Shown: positions 10,201-30,290 of the stretch, piece after piece | Layout of the letters: the number at the start of each line of letters is the position of its first letter | Numbering within the stretch: position 1 is the stretch's first letter | Made by a program: the position numbers and the translations under genes | Notes under the pieces: generated by a model | Seen by the model: the letters and a program-made list of their open reading frames with translations, nothing else | The model's database searches: none | What the model was told of the DNA's origin: nothing | DNA from: Myxococcota bacterium | Lineage (GTDB): Bacteria > Myxococcota_C > UBA6777 | Length of the DNA stretch: 30,613 nt | Reading direction: 5' to 3' | Assembly: GCA_023150835.1 (NCBI GenBank) | Contig: JAKLKB010000078.1 | Coordinates: 1 to 30,613 of the forward strand

Positions 10201-10364
10201 CCTGTCTTATCGTCGAGATGAACGCATTTCAACACAACTTCTTTGGAAAAGTCTCCCAAGCCGATCTGAACGGCCCCCCAAACCTCGGCTTGTCCCCCCT
10301 CTCCCAAGCGGGCGACCAACTTGTATTTCCCATTACCTATAAAGACGCCCGGTCTGAGTTTCAT
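7227..10364 (-). CDS. Membrane-anchored Ser/Thr protein kinase with long linker
   Basis: This 1045-residue Hanks-type kinase starts at ATG 10364; the frame is open further upstream to a TTG at 10457, but kinase homology begins directly after MKLRPGVFIG. The catalytic domain (about 12-290) has the glycine loop GEGGQAEVWG, Lys46, HRDLKPSN with Asp153, DFG at 171-173 and GTPSYMSPEQ. A long low-complexity region follows, rich in Pro, Ser and acidic residues. It includes about seven variants of an SxxE(I/V)P motif around residues 600-695. One transmembrane helix lies at about 829-847. The roughly 200-residue C-terminal domain would be extracytoplasmic and ends in a very basic tail (KRRVKRRRR). It has no PASTA-like repeats. 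This architecture is common in Myxococcota. The gene is convergent with the ABC operon, and its substrate is unknown. Confidence 0.93.
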   Translation of the reverse strand: MKLRPGVFIGNGKYKLVARLGEGGQAEVWGAVQIGLGDFSKEVVLKCVHLDDKTGPEQRGMLLHEARLAARLQHPNIVEIYDVGEEQDLVYIAMERIQGYDLEVILARSKEITKKPIPWSLAVYVVIEVSKGLHYAHTHVGRDGRPLHLVHRDLKPSNILLSRNGFVKVIDFGIAKATNHPAKEGNTLNGQIKGTPSYMSPEQIYARPLDARSDLFALGSILYELCSGERPFSGDEVFSIMMAVTQNTPSSLFALTPNIPAQLEDAVFRLLEKDPEKRFQNARDLQRELDMILRERDLFIDQEDLARFYEETVGDFVPSKNEASLVGASQDFQSLAQSMGDYAHAQEAYPDYVPPVYPEANYHPASPSYLPPRPALQGVDVWDISELSENEETSGDETITGDETFLESGGKSSPRPDAVDVVAMESDASLLKSSSPAPTGKLDTRQLPAFQGPQDLSDLLGSSEALPSASILKSKISGLDALGGDSGMVGVDFAIPQEALSLLDAYHKPNDLLDVMAPTETFIPAVSGDTGDHTNLTVGPSPHAAPLPLPRKVSRLSEGGDQTTGDATLGEPADVPKRPDHAVGASNLPRPPMVSADGKREGRPPSAHEIPTVSSAGAGASMRPLSVPEIPQVGSSKRPLSAHEIPQVRAGGRGPSLQEVPQIAGTPLSMEVPRALPKTEEAVRPRSFPEVARVEKPAGAGQNEIQHGSVSFAEVRLKATPVEGETARSGGGLASVPSPLPTNRSHDPLRQPVRAVATGQIPHVDFAVHPPEYAPSELAKGVDAAGRFAPRIPERLDTSARPITPLHASPQILATPKQDDAKTMSLLLRLILLVGLVGVLAVSYAAFQFVRSRTLEDGRALVRFDFSPACQLHLLKKADPEMVSKTLGLSNTAQIRLEPGLYYFLCESEENRLSFFNSSPYKIRDDRREQLIQERFPQIRVTLLSQGQPAIIYHPRFKKPIGKTDKPFVLTIPHQEIRLRVVLESDPRVEKKVAIPASQDNDMEQPLWKAGEVKELLEKHKPKALPPHEEPSPEPPKRRVKRRRR

Positions 10365-10796
10365 AAAATACGCTTTCCCTTGAAGCGGACTCGCTTCCTT
10401 GCGATTCGCAGATAGTCGCGGCTGGCTCTTTTCAAAACCATGAGACAACACAAGCAAAGCCTACACAAAACGCGCAGGCTCAAAAAGGTTATTTGACACG
10501 CACTTTTCACGCAAGACCCAAAAATGCTTGGCGCTTGCCTCTTGCACCGCAACGCAGCGAACAAGCCTCGCTGCTTAGGCACCAAGAAGGCACACGCAAC
10601 TGGGACGATCGTGGATGATTGTACCCATCCGCGCACAAAAGACAAACAAATCTTTCGCTCTACCGACCATCCTTGCGGCGATCTGAGCGGATGGCGCATC
10701 CTTGCCTATGATCCAAACCCAAACCATCTCGGTAACGCAGGGGACGAATTTGCGGGTGGCGGATGCCATCGCGCAGCCCAAGAATTTTTGAGTCGA
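10365..10796. other. Gap between DUF1015 gene and kinase gene
   Basis: These 432 bases carry no gene I can support. Short frames exist on both strands but have coding-unlike composition and no ribosome binding sites or recognisable motifs. The kinase promoter must lie here on the minus strand, but no convincing -35/-10 pair was found. A TTGACA on the plus strand near 10493 has no matching -10. Confidence 0.6.
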
Positions 10797-12647: not shown

Positions 12648-15600
12648 ATGGAACGACGACTCCTTTGGCTGTTTCTTGCAACCGCCTTGACCTTTGTGTT
12701 TCTCGGTGGATGCGGGCCGATCACGCTAAACCCCAACCAAACGATCTGCACCGCCACCCAAGACTGCCCCGGGCGCTTGCGCTGCCAACAAGGCCGATGT
12801 GTCGCTCTCTCCACCGAAACGACACCCACCGAGCCTCTCCCTTCCGAAATCAGCGCAGAATCCACCGTCGAGTCCCTGCCTTCCGAACCTCCCTCCGAAC
12901 CCACTGTCGAATCCCTCACAGAGCCTTCTCTCGAATCCGTCCCCGAAGATGCTGGCTCTGAGCCTTCTCCAGAACGCCCGCCCGACGCCGTCTGCGAAGA
13001 CGAAGACAAAGACGGGTACTGCGCCAATCTACCCAACGACAAAGGCCAATACGACTGCAACGACAAAAACAAACAGATCCATCCCAACGCCCCCGAACAA
13101 TGCAACGGAGAAGACGACAACTGCAACGGGCAGATCGACGAAGATCTCACTCCCCCTCCTTGCAGCAAAACCCAAGGCGTCTGCTCAGGGGCAAAAAAAA
13201 CCTGCAAAGGCAAACAAGGATGGGCCGATTGCACCGATAGCGATTACCTCGTACACAGCGGAGATTACGAATCAAAAGAAACCACTTGTGATGGCAAAGA
13301 CAACGACTGCAACGGCCTAATCGACGATAACGTGTTCTTGCCCACCGCTCCCTGCCAAACTCCCCAAAAGCTCGGCGAATGCGCTCGCGGCCAATATACG
13401 GGCTGCAAAGACGGCAAACTGGTGTGTACATCCAACATCCAACCCCAACCCATCGAGATCTGCGACAACGGCAAAGACGACGATTGCAACGGCAGCGTCG
13501 ATGAAAATCCCCCTTGCGCCTGCATAAACGGCAAAAAAGAATCCTGCTACGACGGTCTCATCGGATGCACCCGAAAAAGCGACGGTTCCTACACCTGCAT
13601 CAGCCCCTGCCAAGCCGGTTCTCGAGCTTGTCTCAACAGCAGATGGGGAGCCTGCCTTACACAGATCACCCCATCATCCGAGATCTGCAACGGTAAAGAC
13701 GACGATTGCGACGGCACCATCGACAACAACACCACAGACAGCAACAAAGACTGCAACACCTCAAAACCCGGCATCTGCCAAGATGGCCGTACCCAATGCG
13801 CCAACGGTACGCTCTCCTGCACCTCCATCTTTCAAGCCACCCCCGAAACCTGCAACGGCAAAGACGACGACTGCAACGGAAACATCGACGACAATCCCCA
13901 AGAACAAGGCAAAGCCTGCCCTGCACAAGCCACAGGAGAATGCAAAAACGGCTCCTATCGCTGCGAAGCTGCCCGACTGACCTGTGTCCCCGCCTCGCCA
14001 ACACCCGAGATCTGCAACGGCAAAGACGACGATTGCGACGGTAGCATCGACAATACCGAAGGAACAAGCTTGCCGATCGCTCGTTCTTGCTACGGCGGCC
14101 CCGCCCAGTCCCTCGGCGTGGGCCTCTGCATCGACGGCACACAACGTTGCATCAACGGCACATGGGACGCTTGCAATAACGCACAAACTCCCCGCAGCAG
14201 CGAGACCTGCGACAATGCCGCTGACGACAACTGCGATCACTCCCTCACCTACGGATGCAACACCTGTAACCCAAGTCGCGTCAATTTCCCCCTCACCCCT
14301 TACGGCGAACACAGCGACGCCATCCGCGCCACCGCCCTCAGCCCCAACAATCTGCTTTTTGTCTCCGCTTCCAAAACGGGAGAGATCCGCATCTGGTCGC
14401 GCACGGATGGCCTTCTGCTTTCTTCCCTGCGCGCTCACACCAACGCCATCCAAGACCTCGCCATCAGCAACGACAACACCCTCCTCGCCTCCGCAAGCAG
14501 CGATAAATCCGCTGCGATCTGGACGCTCTCGACCGCACAACGCCTGCGCACCCTCTCCGGCCACTCAGGAGAAGTCGTGGGGATTCGCTTTATCGACAAC
14601 GATCAAGCCCTGATCACCGTCTCCGATGACGGCTACCTCCACCGCTACAACACCGCCGACGGAACACTCCAAAAACGCCTCAAGATCGGCTTTAACGCAC
14701 GCAGCCTCGCGATATCTCCACAAACAAACCTGCTCGCTGTCGGTGGAAGCCTCGGAGATATCGCCCTTTTTGACCTCTCCCAACACAAGTTCACCAAACA
14801 ATGGAAAGCCCACAGCGCTGCCGTCCTCTCCCTCGCCTTCTCTCCCGACGGCAAAGAACTCGCAAGCGGAAGCAGCGATCGCACCATCTTGATCTGGAAC
14901 ACAGACAACAACCTCGGACAAAAACTCTACACCCTCAGCGGCCTGCAAGCCGAAGTCTACAGCGTGTTCTACGATCCGCAAAAACGTTTCTTTTTCGCAG
15001 GTACCGCAGAAAAACTGGTTCGTGCGTGGCGTCTCCCTCTCTACACTTACGCTCACGCTTACACCTCGCCCAACGGCGCTGTCACCAGCATCCAAGCCGA
15101 AACCACCGGCACAACCCTCTACGCTGCCACCGATACGCCTCGCACTTACTCATGGCCGATCGCCTCCCCAACAGCCTCCGCCCGCCCTTTCCCCGCACAC
15201 AACAGCCACATCACCGCCCTCGCTCAAAACAACAACATCGGTCTGCTCGCCTCTGGCGATGATCGCGGCACCATCGTTCTTTGGAAACAAGGAACCCTTC
15301 TCCGCTCCTCCGCGCTCCTCAGCAAACACAACGCGACGATCTCACGGCTCGCTTTCACCGCAGACGGAAAAACCCTCGTCTCCACCAGTCGCAACGGCGA
15401 TATCGTCGTTTGGGAGACCAGCAACGCCACTCTCAAAACCACCTTTTCGAGCGCTCACCTCGGAAAAGCCGTCTCTGCCCTTTCCATCCAACCCAACAGC
15501 CCTTCCCTGTTCGTCTCCGGCGGCGATGATGGCCGCATCATCGCTTGGGATATCAGCAAAAACAAAGATATCTCGACGCTCGCCCTCCCCAACAGCGATC

Positions 15601-16082
15601 TCCCCCTTGACCTTCAATTCCAAGACGACAACAAAACCATCGCCGTCGGCGCAAGCAGCGGACGCCTCTACATCCTCAGCTTCGATGGCATCAACCTCAA
15701 GCTCGAAAGAACCCTCACAGAACACCAAAACAGCGTCCTTGCCGTCGCCTTTGGATCTCGCCCTACCATGGGCGCTCCTGTCCTCGCCTCTTCTGATGTC
15801 GCAGGACGGATCGTCTTTTGGACAACAACCTTATGGAACAAAGTCGGCGACTTTACCAAAGCCAACGCACGCTACAGCCGACTCCAATTCGGAAGCACAC
15901 CCCAATACCTTTTCGCTCAAAGCGACGCTTTTCTTACGGTCGATATCTTGGACGTCTCCAACCGCAAGATCACCCAAAGCCTCCGTGTTCCACAAAGCCT
16001 ACACAGCTTTTTGTGGCACCCTGAAAGCTTCACCTTGTTCGCAGGCAGCGACGCCATCCTCCACCGATGGACTTGCCCATAA
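12648..16082 (+). CDS. Surface lipoprotein with MopE-type repeats and WD40 propellers
   Basis: This 1144-residue protein has three parts. Residues 1-22 are a lipoprotein signal peptide ending FLGGC, with the modified cysteine at 22. A short Cys module and an acidic Ser/Glu/Pro stalk follow to about 115. Residues about 115-540 hold seven or so cysteine-rich repeats. The first is a complete MopE-type unit (DxDxDGYC ... DCND ... NGEDDNCNGQIDED); the rest are shorter CNGKDDDCDGxIDN units that probably bind Ca2+ through their Asp-rich loops. From about 547 to the end lie a dozen or more WD40 repeats (for example LASGSSDRTILIWN and FVSGGDDGRIIAWD), enough for one or two beta-propellers. GGGAGA lies about 11 nt before the ATG. 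The product is expected on the cell surface as a binding or scaffold protein. No enzyme motif is visible. Next gene follows 146 bp later on the same strand. Confidence 0.92.
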   Translation: MERRLLWLFLATALTFVFLGGCGPITLNPNQTICTATQDCPGRLRCQQGRCVALSTETTPTEPLPSEISAESTVESLPSEPPSEPTVESLTEPSLESVPEDAGSEPSPERPPDAVCEDEDKDGYCANLPNDKGQYDCNDKNKQIHPNAPEQCNGEDDNCNGQIDEDLTPPPCSKTQGVCSGAKKTCKGKQGWADCTDSDYLVHSGDYESKETTCDGKDNDCNGLIDDNVFLPTAPCQTPQKLGECARGQYTGCKDGKLVCTSNIQPQPIEICDNGKDDDCNGSVDENPPCACINGKKESCYDGLIGCTRKSDGSYTCISPCQAGSRACLNSRWGACLTQITPSSEICNGKDDDCDGTIDNNTTDSNKDCNTSKPGICQDGRTQCANGTLSCTSIFQATPETCNGKDDDCNGNIDDNPQEQGKACPAQATGECKNGSYRCEAARLTCVPASPTPEICNGKDDDCDGSIDNTEGTSLPIARSCYGGPAQSLGVGLCIDGTQRCINGTWDACNNAQTPRSSETCDNAADDNCDHSLTYGCNTCNPSRVNFPLTPYGEHSDAIRATALSPNNLLFVSASKTGEIRIWSRTDGLLLSSLRAHTNAIQDLAISNDNTLLASASSDKSAAIWTLSTAQRLRTLSGHSGEVVGIRFIDNDQALITVSDDGYLHRYNTADGTLQKRLKIGFNARSLAISPQTNLLAVGGSLGDIALFDLSQHKFTKQWKAHSAAVLSLAFSPDGKELASGSSDRTILIWNTDNNLGQKLYTLSGLQAEVYSVFYDPQKRFFFAGTAEKLVRAWRLPLYTYAHAYTSPNGAVTSIQAETTGTTLYAATDTPRTYSWPIASPTASARPFPAHNSHITALAQNNNIGLLASGDDRGTIVLWKQGTLLRSSALLSKHNATISRLAFTADGKTLVSTSRNGDIVVWETSNATLKTTFSSAHLGKAVSALSIQPNSPSLFVSGGDDGRIIAWDISKNKDISTLALPNSDLPLDLQFQDDNKTIAVGASSGRLYILSFDGINLKLERTLTEHQNSVLAVAFGSRPTMGAPVLASSDVAGRIVFWTTTLWNKVGDFTKANARYSRLQFGSTPQYLFAQSDAFLTVDILDVSNRKITQSLRVPQSLHSFLWHPESFTLFAGSDAILHRWTCP

Positions 16083-18565: not shown

Positions 18566-20884
18566 CTACTTGCCCACGCTCCTTTTTCGCACACCAAACG
18601 ACAAGGGCTTTGGCCCGATATCAAACAGCCTCGTAAACAAAAACAACAAAAACAACAAACCAAACGTCGCCGCCAACCCGATCCCCACAAACGACCGTCT
18701 ATTCTCCGCGATCCGCTGCTCCACGTCCTCCTGCGTTCGCCTCACCACCAACACCGCACGCACCCGATTGCTCTTCGTCAATTGCGACGTACCCGCCCAA
18801 CCATAACCCACATTCAAAGCCTTCCCAGTCTCCCCATGACACGCTTGACAGGGCTTTCCATTCGGAACTGGCCAATACACCGTCAACACCTTGTTTTCTC
18901 CAAACAACTCCATAAAAGAAACCGCCCTCTCCTTTGTCAACGCATCGTTCCAACGATCCTTTTCAACCCGAAAAGCCGTCTTCTTTTGCGCCAACAACCC
19001 TTTGTGCGCTTGATCGATATTCAAAAAACCGATGCGCTTGAGCTCGCTGACTTTGGACAATAGCTTCGGATGCTTCTGCTTGATCCATTCAAGAACCTTC
19101 GGATCAGACAAGCGTTTCTCCACAAACTGCCGCGTCGAAAGATCCGTGTACGCATACGTCTTGTCCAATCGCACCACTTCGATCGACGCGATGGTCTTGT
19201 CTTTTCGGAGCTTTGACACCAACTCCCGCACGATATCCGCCCGCCCCTCAACCATATTGGCCCCGATCGCTCGCTGAAGCGTGGCCGCTTGATCCAACGC
19301 TGCCTTGCGATCTTGTTCCCGTAATGCCTGCCCCGTGTTGTGCAGATTGAACACCAACAGCGAACCAAACGCGAACACCATCACCAACAACAAACCCAAC
19401 ACCGACGCAACCCCCGCAAAGACCGCACGATTCCGACGCATCAACTTCTGAAATCGCTCTGCACGTGTCAATGGGTGCGCCTTGATCGGCTTTTCCGCAA
19501 GATACGCATCGATATCGTCTGCAAAATCCGCCGCCGACGCATAACGCCGCCCCGCCTCCTTCTCCATCGCTTTCAAACACAAAATGTCCAATTCTTGCGG
19601 AATCTTCCGCCCCAAAACACGCTGCGCCACCTCTGACGGTGCCTCCACCTCGTTCGAGATCACCTGCATCATTAACGAAAACAACGTATCTCCCACAAAC
19701 GGCACCCGACCCGTCAACAAGTGAAACATCGTCGCTCCCAACGAATACACATCGCTCAACGGACCCACATACTGCACTTCCCCATTCGCCTGCTCGGGCG
19801 ACATATAATACGGCGTCCCCATCGTCGCTTTGGTCGCCGTCAAATTCAGCCCTTGTTCGCGATCTTTCGCGATCCCAAAATCCATGATGTACGGCTCGCC
19901 TTGTTGATCGATCAAGATGTTGTCTGGTTTGACGTCTCGATGCACAATCCCCCGTCGATGCGCATAATCCAACGCACGACAACACTTGCTCAAGATCTGT
20001 AGCCCCCGCCTCATCGCCTCCTCGCTCTGCTCGTCTATTAGATCTTGAAACGTCTTCCCCTCGATCCAATCCATCACAAAATAAAACGTCCCCGGCTCTT
20101 CTCCCGCATCAAACACCGAGATGATGTTCGGATGCCGCAGCCTCCCCGCAAGCATCGCCTCATTTTGAAACCGCAAGATCGTTGCTTCGTTGATCTGTTT
20201 CCCAACCTTCATCACCTTGATCGCACAAAAACGACACAGATTCAGCGAATACGCCTTGTAAACCTTCCCCATACCCCCTTCTCCTATCTCCCCAAGCAGA
20301 TCATAAGCCCCCAAACGACCGATCACATCGGTCGAAGAATACGGCAACGCAAATGCTTGCTGCTCATCCCCCTGCAACACACGACGATCTCCCATCGCCG
20401 TTGTCAGCACCCCGTCTCGATAACGCCGCAACTGCTTTGCGCGTACCGTCTGACTCCCGCCTCTCGCCTTCCCACCTGTCGCACGACCCTCCACAACGCC
20501 CACCACCACCGAAACAGCGTTCTCGCCCGTCGCCTCAAACGCAACGTCTCCACCTTCCAACACCGTCCTTCCCGCCTTCTCCTCATCAAACACCGTCCTT
20601 CCCGCCTTCTCCTCATCAAACACCGTCCTTCCCGCCTTCTCCTCATCAAACACCGTCCTTCCCGCCTTCTCCTCATCAAACACCGTCCTTCCCCCCGTAT
20701 CCGCCCCAATGACCGCTTCTTCGACCTCCCCCACAACAAACACATCCACCGCTGTACGTTCGGGGCGCTCGTCCAACGTATTTGCGAAAAGATCCCATCC
20801 ACCCACGCTTTTGACACGCCCTTCCTGATCGCCGATCACCCGTTTCTTGCTCGAACCCTCTTCGCTCTTTTTCTCGCTTGACAT
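18566..20884 (-). CDS. Ser/Thr protein kinase with extracytoplasmic haem c (CxxCH) sensor domain
   Basis: This 772-residue kinase starts at ATG 20884, with GGAGGAG about 7 nt upstream. The N-terminus is acidic and holds four to five identical 10-residue GRTVFDEEKA repeats (about 65-110). The kinase domain (about 195-470) has IGEGGMGKVY, Lys223, IVHRDVKPDN with Asp317, DFG at 335-337 and GTPYYMSPEQ. Helix 1 lies at about 488-513 and helix 2 at about 733-752. The roughly 215 residues between them should be periplasmic. They end in VYWPVPNGKPCQACHGE, with Cys679, Cys682 and His683 forming a c-type haem attachment site. This domain resembles the DUF3365/Tll0287-like sensors usually found on histidine kinases and chemoreceptors. 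A role in sensing redox state, oxygen, NO or CO is inferred. It lies divergent from bL31 and 2.2 kb from a cbb3 oxidase operon. Confidence 0.93.
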   Translation of the reverse strand: MSSEKKSEEGSSKKRVIGDQEGRVKSVGGWDLFANTLDERPERTAVDVFVVGEVEEAVIGADTGGRTVFDEEKAGRTVFDEEKAGRTVFDEEKAGRTVFDEEKAGRTVLEGGDVAFEATGENAVSVVVGVVEGRATGGKARGGSQTVRAKQLRRYRDGVLTTAMGDRRVLQGDEQQAFALPYSSTDVIGRLGAYDLLGEIGEGGMGKVYKAYSLNLCRFCAIKVMKVGKQINEATILRFQNEAMLAGRLRHPNIISVFDAGEEPGTFYFVMDWIEGKTFQDLIDEQSEEAMRRGLQILSKCCRALDYAHRRGIVHRDVKPDNILIDQQGEPYIMDFGIAKDREQGLNLTATKATMGTPYYMSPEQANGEVQYVGPLSDVYSLGATMFHLLTGRVPFVGDTLFSLMMQVISNEVEAPSEVAQRVLGRKIPQELDILCLKAMEKEAGRRYASAADFADDIDAYLAEKPIKAHPLTRAERFQKLMRRNRAVFAGVASVLGLLLVMVFAFGSLLVFNLHNTGQALREQDRKAALDQAATLQRAIGANMVEGRADIVRELVSKLRKDKTIASIEVVRLDKTYAYTDLSTRQFVEKRLSDPKVLEWIKQKHPKLLSKVSELKRIGFLNIDQAHKGLLAQKKTAFRVEKDRWNDALTKERAVSFMELFGENKVLTVYWPVPNGKPCQACHGETGKALNVGYGWAGTSQLTKSNRVRAVLVVRRTQEDVEQRIAENRRSFVGIGLAATFGLLFLLFLFTRLFDIGPKPLSFGVRKRSVGK
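20561..20692 (-). repeat. Perfect 30-bp tandem repeat inside the haem-kinase gene
   Basis: Four full units at 20561-20590, 20591-20620, 20621-20650 and 20651-20680 are identical base for base. A partial fifth unit ends at 20692. The unit is in frame and encodes the 10-residue period TVFDEEKAGR. Identity at synonymous positions implies recent expansion or ongoing slippage. Confidence 0.95.
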
Positions 20885-20962
20885 CACTCGCTCCTCCCAG
20901 CACAGGGCTTACGCAGATCGGTTTGCTTGGCGGGGCTTTCCCTCACACCCCACAAAATCACC

Positions 20963-21089: not shown

Positions 21090-21341
21090 ATGAAAGCAGA
21101 TATCCATCCCAAATACAACCATGTGATCTTTACCGACGGCGACTGGGAACTCGTCACCCGCTCCACCATGAAAAGCAACGAAGTCAAAAGCATCAACGGC
21201 GTTGATCACTACGTGATCCCCCTCTCCGTTAGTGCTTATACGCACCCTTTCTGGAACGGTGGTAGCCAACGCTTTGTCGACACCGCAGGTCGCCTTGAGC
21301 GCTTCCAACGCAAATACGCCCGACCCGCTCGCAAAGCCTAA
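21090..21341 (+). CDS. rpmE: 50S ribosomal protein bL31, zinc-independent form
   Basis: The 83-residue product is the large-subunit protein that bridges the central protuberance to the 30S head. MKADIHPKYNHVIF at the start, RSTMKS in the middle and HPFWNGGSQRFVDTAGRLERFQRKY at the end are all diagnostic. The zinc-binding cysteines of the C+ form are missing, and Thr or other residues stand in their place, so it is the zinc-independent (C-) type. ATG 21090 is preferred over an upstream in-frame ATG at 21066 because AAAGGAG lies 6 nt before it and all family members begin MK.DIHP. It appears monocistronic with its own promoter. In some bacteria C- paralogues are induced by zinc shortage; whether a C+ copy exists elsewhere cannot be seen here. 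Confidence 0.95.
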   Translation: MKADIHPKYNHVIFTDGDWELVTRSTMKSNEVKSINGVDHYVIPLSVSAYTHPFWNGGSQRFVDTAGRLERFQRKYARPARKA

Positions 21342-21974: not shown

Positions 21975-22246
21975 AAACGCCGTCCCTTCTCTCCTCTCAA
22001 AAATAACTCCGTTTGTTTGGGCGCTTGACGAAGCAGCGTCGATCCGTATGCTGACGGGCGTTGGGTGTTGACACAAAGCTTCTCGAAACGGCCCTCCCAA
22101 CCCCGAAAGACGTACCTCCCACAGGTACAAAGACATCCCAAGGAAAGAAACTGGGAGCGGCGTTTCTGTTGTGTCGCCTTCAAAGCGACCGTTCCGAGCA
22201 TCCCCACCGCGCCCCCAGACCTCCATCCCAAGCGGAGAGACCCACC

Positions 22247-23002
22247 ATGCACCGCACCAAAGAACAGAAAGACCTTCCATGGCAAGCAGGACGCAACAGC
22301 AGCCCCGCTTGTTTGTCTTGCGACAAACGCCTTCACAACCAATGGAAAGTCCTTGATGAAGAGCAGCTTCGCGACCTCAACACCGTCAAGTCGTGCAACA
22401 CCTACCAACCCGGGCAAGTGATCTTCTACCAAGGCAACCCATGTATGGGCCTTTATTGCATCGAATCTGGAACGGTTGCTCTGCGCAAGATCGATATACA
22501 CGGAAACAGCGTCGTGATCAAGCTTGCCCATGACGGGCAAACCCTCGGCTATCGCGCCTTTTTCTCCAACACAGAGTACTCCGTCTCCGCAGAAGCCGTC
22601 ACGGCTTGCCGTGTCTGCTTTATTCCCCGTGACTTTGTTCGTGATATCTTGCTCAAAAACCTCCAATTCGGCTATGAGTACCTTTCTCGCCTTGCCACCG
22701 ACCTCGGCGAGTCCGAAGACGAGAAAATGAAGATGTCCACGCTCCCTGTCCGTACCCGCCTCGCGCATCTTCTGCTTTCCCTCAAAGAACACTACGGACA
22801 CGTCGATGACGACGGCGTCCTCACCATCGAGCTCCCCATCTCCCGCCAAGATATGGCTTCCATGCTCGCCATCCGCCCCGAAACTTTATCTCGAGCGATC
22901 CGCGCTCTCGAAAAAGATGAGGTCGCCCTCTTTGACCGCCAAGCCGCCTCCATCGCTGATCTCGACGCCCTACTCGATGAGATCGAAAATCCCATCCCCT
23001 AA
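22247..23002 (+). CDS. Crp/Fnr family transcription regulator, FNR-like
   Basis: The 251-residue product has an N-terminal cyclic-nucleotide-binding-type beta-roll (about 40-150), a long dimerisation helix and a C-terminal winged helix (about 165-235). ATG 22247 follows GGAGAG by about 8 nt; upstream codons are not coding-like. Cysteines are at 22, 25, 50, 66, 71, 121 and 124. Cys22/Cys25 form a CxxC near the start, and Cys124 in VCFIPRD aligns with the central FNR cysteine (VCEIPFE). The spacing of the other N-terminal cysteines differs from E. coli FNR, so an iron-sulfur cluster is plausible but not certain. The recognition helix reads PETLSR (211-216), keeping the Glu, Ser and Arg with which FNR reads TTGAT half-sites. 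The cbb3 operon starts 105 bp downstream on the same strand, making control of that oxidase the likely role. Confidence 0.9.
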   Translation: MHRTKEQKDLPWQAGRNSSPACLSCDKRLHNQWKVLDEEQLRDLNTVKSCNTYQPGQVIFYQGNPCMGLYCIESGTVALRKIDIHGNSVVIKLAHDGQTLGYRAFFSNTEYSVSAEAVTACRVCFIPRDFVRDILLKNLQFGYEYLSRLATDLGESEDEKMKMSTLPVRTRLAHLLLSLKEHYGHVDDDGVLTIELPISRQDMASMLAIRPETLSRAIRALEKDEVALFDRQAASIADLDALLDEIENPIP

Positions 23003-23107
23003 CGCTTGCCACTTCTACCCGATGGATTCGCGTCCTCTTTCAAACGCCCACAGTTCGCAACCATACGTGCGGACTTCATCTCGCAAACACAAACACCGAG
23101 GAATCCG

Positions 23108-25396
23108 ATGGAACATGTCGCTGAATCGCAACGGCTCGAAAAGTTTGTTTATGACGACGATATCACACGCAAATTCGTCTTCGCCACAGTCCTTTGGGGA
23201 ATCGTGGGGATGCTTGTCGGATTGATCGTCGCCTTTCAACTCGTCTTGCCGTGGCTCAATCTTGAAATCGAGTGGTTGACCTTTGGCCGCCTGCGTCCCC
23301 TTCACACCAACGCCGTGATCTTTGCTTTTGCCTGCAACGCTGTCTTTGCCGGTATGTACTACTCCAGCCAACGCTTGCTCAAAACCCGTATGTTTAGCGA
23401 CATGATGAGCCGCATCCACTTCTGGGGCTGGCAGTTGATCATCGTGATCGCCGCCATCACCCTCCCGCTCGGCATCACCCAATCCAAGGAGTATGCAGAA
23501 CTTGAGTGGTGGGTCGATCTCCTGATCACAGCGGTTTGGGTGATCTTTTCCATTAACTTCTTTTTAACCATCCGTATCCGCCGTGAGCGCCATCTCTACG
23601 TCGCGATCTGGTTTTACATCGCTTCGCTGATCGCCGTCGCGATGCTTCATCTCTTCAACAACCTTGTCATCCCCGTCAGTTTGACCAAAAGTTATCCCAT
23701 CTATTCGGGGGTTCAAGACGCTTTCATGCAGTGGTGGTACGGACACAACGCCGTCGCTTTTGTCCTCACCACGCCCTTCTTGGGCATGATGTACTACTTT
23801 ATGCCCAAAGCCGCCGAACGGCCCGTCTACTCTTACCGCCTTTCGATCCTCCACTTTTGGACGCTGATCTTCCTCTATATCTGGGCGGGCCCCCACCACC
23901 TCCATTACACCGCACTCCCGGGGTGGGCGAGCACCCTTGGGATGGTCTTCTCCATCATGTTGTGGATGCCCTCATGGGGGGGCATGATCAACGGCTTGCT
24001 CACCTTGCGCGGCGCATGGCACAAAGTCGCCCGTGATCCCGTCCTCAAATTCATGGTCGTCGCCATCACCTTCTACGGCATGTCCACCTTTGAAGGCCCC
24101 TTGCTCTCCATCAAGTCCGTCAACGCACTCGGCCACTATACCGACTGGATCATCGGTCACGTACACAACGGAACCCTCGGATGGAACGGCTTTTTAGCCT
24201 TTGGCATGGTGTACTGGTTGATGCCTCGCTTGTTCCAAAACACGATCTGGAAACCCCAATGGGTCGAGCTACACTTCTGGATCGGCACCATCGGCATCTT
24301 GCTTTATATCGTTTCGATGTACGTCGCAGGCATCACCCAAGGCTTGATGTGGCGCGCTTTTGATCCCAAAACCGGCCTGCTCGCCTACCCCGACTTCGTC
24401 GATACTGTCATGAACATCCGTTACTTCTACTGGGGCCGCGCTCTCGGCGGAACTCTCTATCTCACAGGCGCTATCCTCTGCGGGATCAACCTCTATATGA
24501 CGTGGGCCACGCGCACCAAAAAAGAATATGACGAAGAGATCCAAGAAGCCCCTGCCCTCCAAAACATCCACTTCGGCGAGATGAAAACCCCTTCGCGTCT
24601 GCGCGAGCGCGGCGCACACGTCGCCGATATCGCCTACAAGATCGAAGCCCTGATCCAACTTTATTGGCACCGCAAATGGGAGCGCTTGCCCCTCACCTTG
24701 ACTGTCATGGTCGTCATCGCCGTAGGTTCCGCCTCCCTCTTCGAGATCATCCCCACCTTTGCCATCAAGTCCAACGTCCCCAAGATCGCCTCCGTTAAGC
24801 CCTATACTCCGCTCGAATTGGCTGGACGCGATATCTATGTCAGCGAAGGCTGCTACAACTGCCACTCCCAAATGGTTCGCCCCATGCGTGCTGAAACCGA
24901 ACGCTACAACTTCCCAACCGTCGACCCCAACGCCTCTTTCGCAAGCCAAAGCTACAGCAAGCCCGGGGAGTTTATCTACGATCATCCCTTCCAATGGGGT
25001 TCTCGACGCATCGGACCTGACCTCCACCGCGAAGGAGGCCGCCGTACCGACGATTGGCACTACAAACACATGATGAACCCTCGCGGTACCCAAGGCGAAG
25101 TCCTTGTCGAAAACTCCATCATGCCCCCCTATCCGTGGCTTGCGCACAAACCCACCGACTTCTCGATCCTCCCCAAAAAGATCTGGGCCATGCGCTTACT
25201 TGGCGTACCTTACACGCTCGAACAAGAAAAAACCTCCATCCAACACGCCAAAGCCCAAGCCAAAGAGATCGCCGATCGCATCCGCATGAAGGGCATCCCC
25301 GGCAAGCACGAAGACAAACAGATCATCGCCCTGATCGCTTATCTCCAACGCCTCGGAACCGACATCCTCAAAGAATATCAAAACAATAGAATGTGA
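23108..25396 (+). CDS. ccoNO: cbb3-type cytochrome c oxidase, fused subunits I and II (CcoN-CcoO)
   Basis: This 762-residue fusion joins the catalytic and the mono-haem subunits of the high-affinity terminal oxidase, which reduces O2 to water and pumps protons. Residues about 1-475 are CcoN, with about 12 helices. They include His66 (RPLHTNAVIF), His213 (WYGHNAVAF, CuB), His263-His264 (GPHHLHY, CuB) and His351/His353 (GHVHNG, haem ligands). A short linker (DEEIQEAPALQNIHFGEMK) leads to a helix at about 530-555. CcoO follows, with CYNCH at 582-586 and an axial Met in SIMPPYPW. GAGGA lies about 7 nt before ATG 23108. In most Proteobacteria ccoN and ccoO are separate genes. Fusions are known, notably in Bacteroidetes, but this one is intact and in a single frame. 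ccoQ-like and ccoP follow. Confidence 0.96.
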   Translation: MEHVAESQRLEKFVYDDDITRKFVFATVLWGIVGMLVGLIVAFQLVLPWLNLEIEWLTFGRLRPLHTNAVIFAFACNAVFAGMYYSSQRLLKTRMFSDMMSRIHFWGWQLIIVIAAITLPLGITQSKEYAELEWWVDLLITAVWVIFSINFFLTIRIRRERHLYVAIWFYIASLIAVAMLHLFNNLVIPVSLTKSYPIYSGVQDAFMQWWYGHNAVAFVLTTPFLGMMYYFMPKAAERPVYSYRLSILHFWTLIFLYIWAGPHHLHYTALPGWASTLGMVFSIMLWMPSWGGMINGLLTLRGAWHKVARDPVLKFMVVAITFYGMSTFEGPLLSIKSVNALGHYTDWIIGHVHNGTLGWNGFLAFGMVYWLMPRLFQNTIWKPQWVELHFWIGTIGILLYIVSMYVAGITQGLMWRAFDPKTGLLAYPDFVDTVMNIRYFYWGRALGGTLYLTGAILCGINLYMTWATRTKKEYDEEIQEAPALQNIHFGEMKTPSRLRERGAHVADIAYKIEALIQLYWHRKWERLPLTLTVMVVIAVGSASLFEIIPTFAIKSNVPKIASVKPYTPLELAGRDIYVSEGCYNCHSQMVRPMRAETERYNFPTVDPNASFASQSYSKPGEFIYDHPFQWGSRRIGPDLHREGGRRTDDWHYKHMMNPRGTQGEVLVENSIMPPYPWLAHKPTDFSILPKKIWAMRLLGVPYTLEQEKTSIQHAKAQAKEIADRIRMKGIPGKHEDKQIIALIAYLQRLGTDILKEYQNNRM

Positions 25397-25405
25397 GTTT
25401 TCTCG

Positions 25406-25639
25406 ATGCGAATCAGCGAGATCGTCTCCAATGCCAGCCGCAGCACCTTGTGGGTCGAGATGGCACTTGTCCTGTTTTTTACAGTCTTTGTCGGCGTCAT
25501 CTTCTATCTTTGGTTCTTGATCAAGCCCGAAGCGCTCGAACGCGCCGCACAAATGCCCCTTGATGACCTCCACCCCCAAGAGCCGCTCACCCTTCCAAAA
25601 GACCCACACGCCGACCACGCACACAAAGGAGAACGTTAA
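25406..25639 (+). CDS. ccoQ: CcoQ-like small membrane subunit of cbb3 oxidase
   Basis: This 77-residue protein has one transmembrane helix at about 18-40 (ALVLFFTVFVGVIFYLWFLI), preceded by a short N-terminus and followed by a polar tail. The tail is rich in Pro, Asp and His (DPHADHAHKGER) and could bind a metal, which is not usual for CcoQ. Identification rests on size, topology and its place between ccoNO and ccoP. It starts 9 bp after the ccoNO stop. Its stop (TAA) overlaps the ccoP ATG by one base, so the genes are translationally coupled. CcoQ usually stabilises the complex rather than taking part in catalysis. Confidence 0.75.
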   Translation: MRISEIVSNASRSTLWVEMALVLFFTVFVGVIFYLWFLIKPEALERAAQMPLDDLHPQEPLTLPKDPHADHAHKGER

Positions 25640-26256
25640 TGCACCACCATTCCACCACGGAGATCGTCGAAGAGTTCACCGAGCCTTCTTACGACAAACT
25701 CCTCGATCACGAATACGATGGCATCCGCGAATACGATAACCCCTTGCCCGGATGGTGGAAGAATCTCTTCTACCTCTCTATCCTCTTCGCTTTCGGCTAC
25801 TGGGGGTACTATCACTTCGGTGGCTCCGCACTCTCCGTCCAACAGATCCACGCCCTCGAAGTCGCCCAAGCCAACGCTGAAATGAAACAGCGACGCGGCA
25901 AAGACTTTGAAAAAAATCTCGCCAACGATTTCCAAAAGATCGTCGGAAACCCCCAATCCATCGCCAAAGGCAAAGAGGCTTATACCAAAAACGGTTGCCT
26001 TGCCTGCCATCGCCCCGACGGCGGCGGACTCATCGGACCCAACCTAACGGATCGCTTCTGGATCTTTGGGCCTCAACCCGTCCAGATCTACAAAGCCATC
26101 TCCAACGGTGGTCGCCCCAACAAAGGCATGGAAGCGTGGGGTAAAAAGATCGCGCCTGACGATATCAAAGCCCTTGTCGCCTACGTCATCAGTTTGCGCG
26201 GCACCAACCCACCCAACCCCAAAAAACCCGAACCCGACGAAACCCCATTCCCCTGA
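25639..26256 (+). CDS. ccoP: cbb3-type cytochrome c oxidase subunit III, mono-haem CcoP
   Basis: The 205-residue product has the conserved CcoP start: an acidic segment with YDGIREYDNPLPGWW, followed by one helix (about 38-60) and a periplasmic cytochrome c domain. That domain has one haem site, CLACH at 120-124, and an axial Met in NKGMEAW. Classical CcoP has two haem c domains and is about 290 residues long; here one is absent, so the electron path is shorter. AAAGGAG precedes the ATG by about 7 nt. It closes the oxidase operon. The assembly genes ccoG, ccoH, ccoI and ccoS are not found in the window. Confidence 0.93.
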   Translation: MHHHSTTEIVEEFTEPSYDKLLDHEYDGIREYDNPLPGWWKNLFYLSILFAFGYWGYYHFGGSALSVQQIHALEVAQANAEMKQRRGKDFEKNLANDFQKIVGNPQSIAKGKEAYTKNGCLACHRPDGGGLIGPNLTDRFWIFGPQPVQIYKAISNGGRPNKGMEAWGKKIAPDDIKALVAYVISLRGTNPPNPKKPEPDETPFP

Positions 26257-26590: not shown

Positions 26591-28450
26591 TCAATAATAC
26601 CGACAGATGCTGTTCCCTATCGACATTATCGCACATTTGGCTGGGGTACTGCCGCGTGTCGGGCAATCCGAGCAGTCCGCATCAGATTTGCATGACACAA
26701 GCTGGACAAAGGCGCTTTCACAAGAAGTGCTCCCCCCTTTACAAGCCGTGTTCCCCTGCGCGCAAACGGTGGCGGATCCTTGCGTCGTGATCGTATAGCA
26801 AACGGTGGAAGGTACGTTGTCGTCGATGGTTCCGTTGCAATCATCGTCTAGGTTGTTGCACTGCTCGACTTGAGGGGGGACTTCGCCCAGACAATCCCCC
26901 CAACCTTTGCCGTTTGCATGGCAGGTTTGTGTTCCTGCTTTGCATATCCCCGTGCATTTGTAGCTGTTTGTGGTGGTCGATGGGAAGCAGCCTGTGCTGT
27001 AGTTGTAGCAGGCTTGCGTGGTGTTGGGGATACAGACGCATCCCGAGGCGTCATCCACGCTTCCGTTGCAATCGTTGTCTTTGCCGTCACACTTGGTTTC
27101 TTTGGTTTCGTAGTCGGGGTTGGCCGCGTAGTCGCAGACCCACCCGCCGTTTTGACAGGTTTGTCGTGTACCGCTGCATACGCCGCTTTGTTTGCTGCAC
27201 AAAACAGGCGTGAGGTTGTTGTCGATCTGCCCGTCGCAATCGTCATCGATCCCGTTGCACTCTTCGGCCTTGTTCGTGACGGCTCCGATACAAGCGGTCC
27301 ATTGGCCGTTTTGGCAGGTCTGCGTTCCCGTTTTGCAGGGAAGCGTGCAGTTGTAGCTGCTTCCGCTTTGGGGGCAGCCTTGTGTTCCGGGATAACAGGT
27401 TTGGGTCGCTCCGTGTGTGCAAATGCAAGCGCTGTGTTCGTCCGTCTTGTCGTTGCAATCGTTGTCTTTGCCGTCGCATTTGGTTTCGACAGCTTCGTAG
27501 TCGGGGTTGGCTGCGTAGTCTGCGGCTGTGCAATCGACCCATGCTCCTTTCACGCAGGTTTGCTTGGAGCCGTTGCAGACGCCTTTTTGGTTGCTACAGG
27601 GTTTGGAGGGGAGGTTGTTGTCGACGGCACCGTCGCAGTCGTCGTCTTTTCCGTTGCAGTCTTCAGGGGTAGGAACTTGTGCATCGCAGTTCCCCCATGT
27701 ACCGTTGCTACACGTTTCTTTTCCGACGCCGCATTTGGATGAACAGGGGCGAGTGACGCCATCGTCGGTGGTACCGTCACAATCGTCGTCTTTGTTGTTG
27801 CATTCTTCGATCTTCTCGACGACTTGCCCTTGGCATGGGCCCCAAACCCCATTGTCGCAAGTTTGTGTTCCTTCTTTGCATTCCCCCTTGCCTTGTGTTC
27901 CTGATGTTCCCGAATAACAAGGCCGCGTTTCTTTGTTTTGGCACTGGAGATCGGGCTTTGGCTCAGGTGCGGGTTCGGGTATCGGCTCCGAAGTGGTTTC
28001 GGGCGAGTCCTCACTTGCATCCGCCTTTTCGTCGGTGGGTTCGGTGTTGACCGATTCTTGGGGATTTTCGACGGAGGGTTCGGTGTTGACCGATTCTTGG
28101 GGATTTTCGACGGAGGGTTCGGTGTTGACGGACTCTTGGGGGTTTTCGTTAGAGGATTCGGTGTTGACGGACTCTTGGGGGGGTTCGTTAGAGGGTTCGG
28201 TATTGGCGGACTCTTGGGACTTTTCGTTAGAGGGTTCGGTATTGGCGGACTCTTGGGACTTTTCGTCAGAGGGTTCGGTGGAAGAAGTGGTGGAGCCGCA
28301 GAGTCCTTGATTGCAATCGAGTCCTCCGCAGTCCACGCTCGTTTGGCAAGGTTTCAGATGTGGCGAAAGCGAGGGGACTTGGCAGGCCAAGCCAAAGCAC
28401 ATGAGCGCAGAGAGCCATATCCATCCAAGGTATCGAGATATCCGCGTCAT
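26591..28450 (-). CDS. MopE-like cysteine-rich lipoprotein (paralogue A)
   Basis: This 619-residue protein starts at ATG 28450 with AAGGAGT about 6 nt upstream. A further in-frame start at 28483 has no such site. The signal peptide ends FGLAC at Cys23, an atypical lipobox but followed by a mature start CQVPSLSPHLKPCQTS that is shared with the next paralogue. Residues about 60-160 are a stalk of 13-residue repeats (TEPSxExxQESxN). From about 170 to 560 lie units of the CNxxDDDCDGxxDD type alternating with GTQTCxNGxWxxC modules. The Asp-rich loops probably bind Ca2+; MopE itself binds copper, which cannot be inferred here. The end is a distinct Cys module (SCKSDADCSDCP ... CRYY), conserved in the paralogue. 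It should be displayed on the cell surface. No catalytic motif. Confidence 0.9.
   Translation of the reverse strand: MTRISRYLGWIWLSALMCFGLACQVPSLSPHLKPCQTSVDCGGLDCNQGLCGSTTSSTEPSDEKSQESANTEPSNEKSQESANTEPSNEPPQESVNTESSNENPQESVNTEPSVENPQESVNTEPSVENPQESVNTEPTDEKADASEDSPETTSEPIPEPAPEPKPDLQCQNKETRPCYSGTSGTQGKGECKEGTQTCDNGVWGPCQGQVVEKIEECNNKDDDCDGTTDDGVTRPCSSKCGVGKETCSNGTWGNCDAQVPTPEDCNGKDDDCDGAVDNNLPSKPCSNQKGVCNGSKQTCVKGAWVDCTAADYAANPDYEAVETKCDGKDNDCNDKTDEHSACICTHGATQTCYPGTQGCPQSGSSYNCTLPCKTGTQTCQNGQWTACIGAVTNKAEECNGIDDDCDGQIDNNLTPVLCSKQSGVCSGTRQTCQNGGWVCDYAANPDYETKETKCDGKDNDCNGSVDDASGCVCIPNTTQACYNYSTGCFPSTTTNSYKCTGICKAGTQTCHANGKGWGDCLGEVPPQVEQCNNLDDDCNGTIDDNVPSTVCYTITTQGSATVCAQGNTACKGGSTSCESAFVQLVSCKSDADCSDCPTRGSTPAKCAIMSIGNSICRYY
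28046..28279 (-). repeat. 39-bp tandem repeat encoding the lipoprotein stalk
   Basis: Six consecutive 39-bp units, bounded at 28279, 28240, 28201, 28162, 28123 and 28084, encode variants of TEPSxExxQESxN. A degenerate seventh lies below 28046. Two neighbouring units, 28046-28084 and 28085-28123, look identical while others differ at a few codons, so the array grows by unit duplication. Length change would alter stalk length in frame. Confidence 0.9.
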
Positions 28451-28466
28451 TGAACACTCCTTGCGT

Positions 28467-28496
28467 AAAGAAAGAAGCCTCAAGGGGGGGTGAGGC
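28467..28496 (-). terminator. Candidate intrinsic terminator of paralogue B
   Basis: On the minus strand GCCTCA (28496-28491) and TGAGGC (28482-28477) form a perfect 6-bp stem around a C-rich loop, followed by the T-rich tract TTCTTTCTTT (28476-28467). It lies 44 bp after the stop of the 28540-30237 gene and 17 bp before the start of paralogue A. Paralogue A would depend on read-through or an internal promoter. Confidence 0.45.
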
Positions 28497-28539: not shown

Positions 28540-30237
28540 CTACGGGTAGATGCAGAATTTCCCGTTTTCAGTTCCGTTGATGCAATTGGGACCTTTTCCG
28601 TTGTGCAGAGGGCATCCGTTACAACTCGCAGCGTTGGTACAACTGAGCATAAACGTCGATTTGCATTGTTCTTGGCCGCTCACGCATTGTACGGTACCTT
28701 TGTAGCAGATATGGAAGCTGCCGACCTTGATACGAGCGCGGCATTCGCGAGGAGCGATATCGTCGATGGTGCCGTTGCAATCGTTGTCGATGGTGTCGCA
28801 GAGTTCAGGGGCAGGAATGATCGCGTCAACACATATCCCCCATGCTTTTCCATCGGGGTTGCAAGTTTGTTTTCCGGCGCGACAAGCCCCCGTGCAGGAG
28901 TACCGACCTCCGATAAGTACACACCCGGGTTTGGCGGGGTAGCAGGCTCTTTGTTGGCCGGGGGTGCAGAGGCATGTTTCGTCGATTTGGCCGTCGCAGT
29001 CGTTGTCTTTGCCGTCGCACTTGGATTCCACTCCTTCGTAGTCTGTTCCGTAATCGCAGTTCAACTGGCTCTCTTTGCAGGTGTATCTTACGCCTTGGCA
29101 GACGCCGATTTGTTTGGGGCATAGTTGTGGGAGCGGCAAGTTGTTATCGATTTGGCCGTCGCAATCGTTGTCTTTGCCGTCGCAGATCTCGGGCGTGTTG
29201 GTGATCTGGCCGTCGCATGGGCCCCACTGTCCGTTTCTGCATGTTTGAGAGCCTGCTTTACACGGAGCTTTGCAGGTGTAGAAACCGTTTTGAAATAGGC
29301 AGCCTTTTGTTCCTGTGTAGCAAGGTCGAGAAGAGCCATCTTGACAAGAGCATCCGTCATCGATTTGGCCGTTGCAATCGTTGTCAAGGCCATCGCATTT
29401 GTTTATTTCTGGATCGAGATATTCGGGGATACTGTTGTAGTTACAGCGGCTCCATTGGCCGTTGTTGCAGGTCTCGAACGAGCCTTTGCAGACGCCTCTT
29501 TGCTCGCAATCTCTTGTAATGCCGTCGATCTTTCCGTCACAATCGTCGTCTTTGTTGTTGCATATTTCGGTTTGGGGAGCGGGGGCGTCACAAGCTCCCC
29601 ATTTTCCTGCGTTGCAGGTTTGCTTACCGCTTCCACATTCGCTGTTGCAGGCTTTTTGGAGGTTATCGTCGATTTGGCCGTTGCAGTCGTTGTCTACGTT
29701 GTCGCATTCTTCGGGGGTTGGGGGGATTTCGCCCACACAAGCATCGGCCCATTTTCCATTTTCGCAGGTTTGTGTTCCACTTTTACACGGGGCTTTGGGG
29801 GGAAGTGAGCCACCTGAGAAGCATACTCTGGTTTGCCCGTCGGTACATTCGGCTTCGAGGGGGTCTTCTGCGACGATGAATTCGAAAGGCTCGGGTGGGG
29901 TTTCGGGGGTAGGTTCCGAAGCGTCTGTGATCTCATCGGTGTTTTCGGGGATTGGTTGTTCTGTGGGAGGCTCGGAAGCGTCGGTTGGCGCGATCTCGAT
30001 GGTGGTTTCTTGCGTATCGGTCGGGGGTTCGGAGGGGGTTTGTTCTACGGAAGGCTCGTGTGGGGAGGATTCGGTTTGGGAGGAGCCACAAAGTCCTTGG
30101 TTGCAATCCGCTCCGTCGCATTCTGCGCTGGTTTGGCAAGGACGGAGATGGGGGTTGAGTGTGGGGGTTTGGCAGGCCACAAACGCGGCGAGAGCAAACA
30201 GAACGATGCAACAGAACAAACCGAAACGAACGGACAT
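28540..30237 (-). CDS. MopE-like cysteine-rich lipoprotein (paralogue B)
   Basis: This 565-residue paralogue of the adjacent gene starts at ATG 30237; GAGG lies about 9 nt upstream. The signal peptide is MSVRFGLFCCIVLFALAAFVAC, with lipid cysteine at 22. The mature start CQTPTLNPHLRPCQTS and the following ECDGADCNQGLCGSS match paralogue A almost residue for residue. The stalk (about 55-125) is acidic and Pro/Thr-rich but lacks the perfect 13-residue periodicity. Cysteine-rich CDGxDNDCNGQIDD and SQTCRNGQWGPC modules alternate from about 130 to 510. The C-terminal module (SCTNAASCNGCP ... CIYP) is shared too. Tandem duplication followed by divergence is the simplest history. Surface display and Ca2+-dependent folding are inferred from the family. 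Nothing catalytic is visible. Confidence 0.9.
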   Translation of the reverse strand: MSVRFGLFCCIVLFALAAFVACQTPTLNPHLRPCQTSAECDGADCNQGLCGSSQTESSPHEPSVEQTPSEPPTDTQETTIEIAPTDASEPPTEQPIPENTDEITDASEPTPETPPEPFEFIVAEDPLEAECTDGQTRVCFSGGSLPPKAPCKSGTQTCENGKWADACVGEIPPTPEECDNVDNDCNGQIDDNLQKACNSECGSGKQTCNAGKWGACDAPAPQTEICNNKDDDCDGKIDGITRDCEQRGVCKGSFETCNNGQWSRCNYNSIPEYLDPEINKCDGLDNDCNGQIDDGCSCQDGSSRPCYTGTKGCLFQNGFYTCKAPCKAGSQTCRNGQWGPCDGQITNTPEICDGKDNDCDGQIDNNLPLPQLCPKQIGVCQGVRYTCKESQLNCDYGTDYEGVESKCDGKDNDCDGQIDETCLCTPGQQRACYPAKPGCVLIGGRYSCTGACRAGKQTCNPDGKAWGICVDAIIPAPELCDTIDNDCNGTIDDIAPRECRARIKVGSFHICYKGTVQCVSGQEQCKSTFMLSCTNAASCNGCPLHNGKGPNCINGTENGKFCIYP

Positions 30238-30261
30238 GACGAGAACCTCGAAAAGTGAATG

Positions 30262-30290
30262 GATATGTACAGGCGTCACGCGGTTGCCAA
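30262..30290 (-). promoter_or_regulatory. Weak candidate promoter of paralogue B
   Basis: Read on the minus strand, TTGGCA (30290-30285) and CATATC (30267-30262) are spaced by 17 bp. The -35 matches five of six bases and the -10 three of six. The 30291-30407 bases further upstream hold nothing recognised. Confidence 0.28.

Follow-up and report, generated by a model that had tools for sequence, protein, structure and literature searches.

The stretch of DNA analysed here, hereafter the window, is an entire contig (G000:C11) of 30,613 bases from a genome of 7.56 Mb in 239 contigs. An open frame on its minus strand (18566-20887) begins with GTG at 20887 and has an ATG one codon further on, at 20884. 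The following features make up the gene and its surroundings.

18566-20884, minus strand: complete coding sequence of 772 residues from ATG (773 from GTG), according to the frame translation; the orthologue in a congeneric genome (L006) likewise starts with ATG.
20559-20693, minus strand: perfect 30-bp tandem array of 4.5 copies encoding GRTVFDEEKA, within the N-terminal region, which is cytoplasmic and of low complexity.
19544-20305, minus strand: Hanks-type Ser/Thr kinase domain, its catalytic motifs all present (Pfam Pkinase, E 1.1e-48).
19349-19423, minus strand: transmembrane helix 1 (TM1), approximately residues 489-513 in GTG numbering, with the basic flank ERFQKLMRRNR before it (hydropathy and sequence).
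18683-19351, minus strand: extracytoplasmic sensor, residues 513-735 in GTG numbering, c-haem sCache / Mcp40H-like (profile and alignment comparisons).
19253-19255, minus strand: invariant Met545 in GTG numbering (544 from ATG), predicted to be the distal ligand of the haem; it aligns with Met60 of GSU0935.
18836-18850, minus strand: CQACH haem-c attachment motif, Cys679/Cys682/His683 from ATG; CQxCH is invariant in nine aligned sensors.
18623-18697, minus strand: transmembrane helix 2 (TM2), with a short basic tail in the cytoplasm after it (hydropathy and Pfam).
21090-21341, plus strand: rpmE, the ribosomal protein L31 gene, between the kinase and the FNR-like gene (Pfam Ribosomal_L31, E 1.4e-19).
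22061-23002, plus strand: neighbouring gene for a Crp/Fnr-family regulator.
23006-25396, plus strand: neighbouring fused ccoN-ccoO gene for cbb3 oxidase subunits.
25639-26256, plus strand: neighbouring gene for a ccoP-like cytochrome subunit.

The encoded protein thus has a disordered cytoplasmic N-terminal region, a Hanks kinase, TM1, a periplasmic sensor, TM2 and a short tail. The kinase matches PF00069 over residues 195-448 (GTG numbering) with its G-loop, Lys, HRD and DFG, and all the motifs are there (GEGGMGKV, AIKVM, HRDVKPDN, DFGIAK and SPEQ). Hydropathy gives two hydrophobic peaks, at approximately 486-518 and 731-758, with Arg/Lys-rich cytoplasmic flanks and about 218 residues between them, which places the intervening domain outside. 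A Pfam scan of the protein detected no HAMP or other domain after TM2. An earlier, sequence-only reading of this DNA had described a complete Hanks kinase with two membrane helices and an external loop carrying Cys679, Cys682 and His683; the architecture and topology were confirmed, and the residue numbers are exact from the ATG. It had put the loop at about 215 residues, which is close, but had let it end at PCQACHGE, after which some 48 further outer-domain residues follow, among them a conserved strand, VRAVLVV.

The GRTVFDEEKA array is present in four copies in the window protein versus one GRTVF unit in the L006 orthologue, which is 30 residues shorter. Its TVFD resembles the pThr-x-x-Asp motif bound by FHA domains, and the repeats may form a variable autophosphorylation or docking array.

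A phylum-level search, which covered only five genomes, showed the 223-residue sensor to be kept in three genomes besides that of the window, with 94, 48 and 43% identity. One Met, EGRADIVR and CQACHG are invariant in the sensors of all four. Conservation over the full length of the domain in these genomes, with CQACHG unchanged, shows that the sensor is not a chance resemblance. The motif is kept in all the orthologues found, in line with the conservation that the sequence-only reading had taken as decisive for its haem assignment. The nearest named relative is the congeneric Myxococcota MAG KLAP109, the sole record matched in the contig scan, and viral contigs scanned for further sensor homologues yielded none.

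To which family the outer domain belongs was less straightforward to establish. Taken singly, the window sensor scores 18.3 bits against PF21563, the Mcp40H-20_sensor family (E 0.003; curated cut-off 27 bits), and 15.2 bits against PF11845, the Tll0287-like or DUF3365 family (E 0.03; curated cut-off 24.1), so that it falls below both cut-offs, which we count against our preferred explanation. All four family sensors nevertheless match both PF21563 and PF11845, with a best E-value of 2.4e-5. A profile built from all four of these sensors (A1) retrieved, from other phyla, c-haem sensors that belong to HAMP-adenylyl cyclases, with E-values of 1e-5 to 3e-19: L044 (E 3.3e-15) and L046 (E 1e-5) in a search of 386 genomes and, at E 1e-12 to 3e-19, further HAMP-cyclase sensors from the phylum to which L044 belongs. 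The L044 sensor is itself above the PF21563 cut-off (39 vs 27 bits), and homology to PF21563 across the domain was found by way of this intermediate and of profile comparison. With hhalign, the window group aligns with 13 PF21563-type sensors at 99.2% (E 2.7e-19, 155 columns) versus 76% with Tll0287-type sensors. Among PDB chains, 3b42 is the only plausible match; it is the c-haem domain of GSU0935 and gives E 0.09 with the single sequence and 0.0065 with the profile. The other chains listed, 3b47 (GSU0582) excepted, give noise-level scores. The sensor of another of the cyclases, L233, matches both 3b42 (E 4e-4) and 3b47 (E 2e-3). An AF2 model of the sensor, from an input of two sequences only, has a pLDDT of 35. 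A conserved CXXCH in an extracytoplasmic domain also makes it a candidate sCache_heme domain in the sense of PMC12889525, a superfamily that includes GSU0582 and GSU0935 and whose Cache fold bears CXXCH on a helix-loop insertion.

Given the hhalign values, these sequence comparisons indicate that the outer domain is very probably a covalent-haem-c sensor of the Mcp40H (GSU0935/GSU0582) type rather than of the Tll0287 type. The sequence-only reading had proposed a DUF3365/Tll0287-like haem sensor on a kinase and a profile search as the way to recognise it; a haem-c sensor on a kinase stands, the subfamily is to be revised, and the match emerges through the A1 profile and intermediates, single Pfam models remaining sub-threshold. 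The window genome also encodes a separate Tll0287-like domain (PF11845, 71 bits) after a lipoprotein-like signal, with no kinase (L001:279-1781, G000:C21).

Kinase and sensor occur together in three of the four genomes. In the fourth (G002), the relative at L008:3181-4920, whose sensor is 47% identical, keeps the juxtamembrane segment, the transmembrane helices and the haem sensor and lacks the kinase domain, another point that we count against our preferred explanation. A Ser/Thr-rich region occupies the place of the kinase in this protein. One could imagine from such a sensor without a kinase that the haem domain is an electron carrier or a structural cap that does not control the kinase, all the more as stand-alone members of the family look redox-functional (PMC12889525). 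We find this unlikely, as every one of the nearest homologues serves as the sensor of a HAMP-cyclase or an MCP, and kinase and sensor stay paired in the other genomes.

Alignment of nine diverse sensors over 232 columns leaves only Ile29, Met33, Pro161, Asn164, Cys168, Gln169, Cys171 and His172 invariant (sensor numbering). Met33, that is Met544 from ATG, aligns with Met60 of GSU0935; in 3b42, Met60 is chain position 26 and Cys140 chain position 106. The Met60 stretch alone scores only 0.6 bits and gains its weight from the nine-sequence alignment. In GSU0935 the distal ligand of the haem is Met60; one monomer of the crystal has it bound, and NO and CO displace it (PMC8396549). The CXXCH motif is 99% conserved as the haem site of the sCache_heme family (PMC12889525). 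Haem attachment would be feasible in the window organism, since its genome encodes cytochrome c assembly proteins and cbb3 haem-c subunits. That this is a divergent Cache domain without haem, in which CxxCH is a vestige, forms a disulfide or binds a metal, would fit the sub-threshold Pfam scores and the low-confidence AF2 model. It is very improbable in view of that family-wide conservation, of the invariance of CQACHG and the distal Met despite divergence to 43% identity, and of the invariance of CQxCH and this Met across phyla.

The architecture, the conservation, the family relationship and the alignment of ligand residues are observed. On these grounds the window protein is probably a real, functional c-haem receptor kinase, its haem binding and kinase control being what we infer. 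We consider it fairly likely that it is a membrane receptor kinase with a periplasmic Mcp40H-type c-haem sensor, in which a Met/His-ligated haem switches the kinase. By analogy with GSU0935/GSU0582 and with the 2026 sCache_heme work, CQACH would hold haem c on the periplasmic side, His683 serving as the proximal ligand, and Met544, on the N-terminal helix, would be an exchangeable distal ligand displaced by NO binding or by iron oxidation. The Met-bearing helix is predicted to be continuous with TM1. Because it comes after TM1, and TM1 after the kinase, an exchange of the ligand would shift TM1 and reach the kinase by that route. It is tempting to speculate that this movement alters how two kinase domains meet in a dimer and thereby turns (trans)autophosphorylation up or down.

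Two stimuli are conceivable for this switch. In one variant of the proposed mechanism, the protein senses redox potential and not NO: Met would bind ferrous iron only, and oxidation would free it and set the state of the kinase. This is the model proposed for GSU0935 and GSU0582, with potentials of -251 and -156 mV, respectively (PMC8396549), and the distal Met is conserved in the nine-sequence alignment. Nevertheless, a signalling-associated c-haem Cache protein released NO slowly, as NO sensors do, and gave no stable oxy complex (PMC12889525). We regard a redox sensor as possible, though we hold to it only tentatively.

The genomic neighbourhood was considered as well. The sequence-only reading had pointed to an FNR-like regulator and a cbb3 oxidase as neighbours, and both are present, with rpmE intervening. 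It had gone on to suggest a respiratory or redox signalling module, in which the kinase would act with these adjoining gene products. The FNR-like, ccoNO and ccoP genes lie upstream of the kinase gene on the opposite strand, and the FNR-ccoN-kinase order is unchanged in the congeneric genome (G001/L006). Both the nature of the neighbours and their retention within the genus would agree with a module. However, the orientation is divergent, and synteny is lost outside the genus: the neighbours in G004 encode aconitase, a P450, an ABC transporter and TyrRS, and no respiratory gene was found in 7 kb in the G002 relative. Furthermore, at least 152 Hanks kinases are encoded in the 7.56 Mb of the window genome, roughly one per 50 kb. 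A kinase near any given locus is thus common, and adjacency to the FNR and cbb3 genes means little. The module is improbable, and we have set the functional link aside.

Other features of the window and of related genomes are worth recording. The fused ccoN and ccoO genes form a single frame, as in NCBI subfamily PRK14485. A second Hanks kinase of 1076 residues is encoded at 7227-10457, with a long C-terminal region without a Pfam match. MopE-type putative metal-binding repeats (PF11617) are found at 12648-16082, 26591-28483 and 28540-30279, one of these proteins also having WD40 repeats. In the relative genome G003 there are 138 matches to the window kinase.

How common such fusions are was assessed beyond the window's own family. 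PF11845 is present in 88 of the 386 genomes, and a kinase was looked for at approximately 90 PF11845 match regions (among them most of the long-frame matches listed) and some 30 PF21563-type loci. A single fusion came to light, L129. Its phylum, which we would guess to be Planctomycetota from an N-terminal zinc-binding segment, contains nine matched kinase-TM-c-haem-TM loci, in 8 of 294 genomes. The pairing of a kinase with a c-haem sensor is rare, as the sequence-only reading had thought, and not unique. L129, L139-L145, L147 and L164 have the same domain order as the window protein, and their kinases are 36-42% identical to its own, but their sensors are of the Tll0287 type (by hhalign, 99.4% to the Tll0287 group vs 14.6% to the window group). 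Since the sensor of the window protein is of the Mcp40H type, separate recruitment is likely, and kinases have probably acquired c-haem sensors at least twice. The L129 and window kinases are reciprocal best matches and group together with modest support (81/91). We do not conclude from this that the fusions had a single origin, as the score of a WD40 kinase from the same genome is nearly as high (218.6 vs 224.1 bits) and the sensors belong to different subfamilies. In the open-access literature searched, we found no haem-bearing bacterial Ser/Thr kinase; architecture databases may list such fusions.

The window protein can be compared with several known systems. With GSU0935 and GSU0582 (PF21563; PDB 3b42, 3b47) it shares an outer domain between two transmembrane helices, CQxCH, an upstream Met at the position of the distal-ligand Met60 and a V/L-rich strand after the motif. 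Those proteins have HAMP-MCP modules after TM2, whereas the window protein has its Hanks kinase before TM1 and nothing after TM2. Its sensor is also longer, with 135 residues from the Met to CxxCH versus 80, and scores below the family cut-off. The HAMP-class III adenylyl cyclases (L044, L046 and L233-L236) have the nearest sensor sequences outside the window's family, but their output, a cyclase, comes after HAMP. DUF3365/Tll0287-like domains (PF11845) probably belong with the window sensor to a common c-haem Cache superfamily (sCache_heme) with CXXCH, the similarity between them being weak. Receptor kinases of the PknB/PknD type share the cytoplasmic kinase, the transmembrane helix and the extracytoplasmic sensor; their sensors are PASTA domains or beta-propellers without haem (PMC6213207), whereas that of the window protein is predicted to hold one. 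In characterised receptors with an Mcp40H-type sensor, HAMP and then the output module come after TM2. With the kinase before TM1 and no output after TM2, the signalling geometry of the window protein is unlike that of characterised proteins, which also counts against our preferred explanation.

The outputs named for c-haem Cache domains are histidine kinases, chemoreceptors, GGDEF/EAL enzymes and cyclases, Ser/Thr kinases being absent from the main text of that work (PMC12889525). Our analysis adds the Ser/Thr kinase to these outputs. It is found in two phyla, joined to sensors of two subfamilies, and it lies at the opposite end of the sensor from the output of characterised chemoreceptors. 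We see about an even prospect that Hanks kinases are gated directly by an extracytoplasmic covalent haem whose distal-ligand helix is continuous with a transmembrane helix, and that this arrangement arose at least twice with two sensor subfamilies. To our knowledge, most receptor-type Ser/Thr kinases of bacteria have no known ligand. As a covalently held chromophore would report its ligand and redox state by its colour, one protein would allow both stimulus and kinase activity to be followed, a direct way to test NO or redox switching of a bacterial Ser/Thr kinase. If the proposed mechanism is true, this would be the first characterised kinase of its type with a covalent gas- or redox-responsive cofactor.
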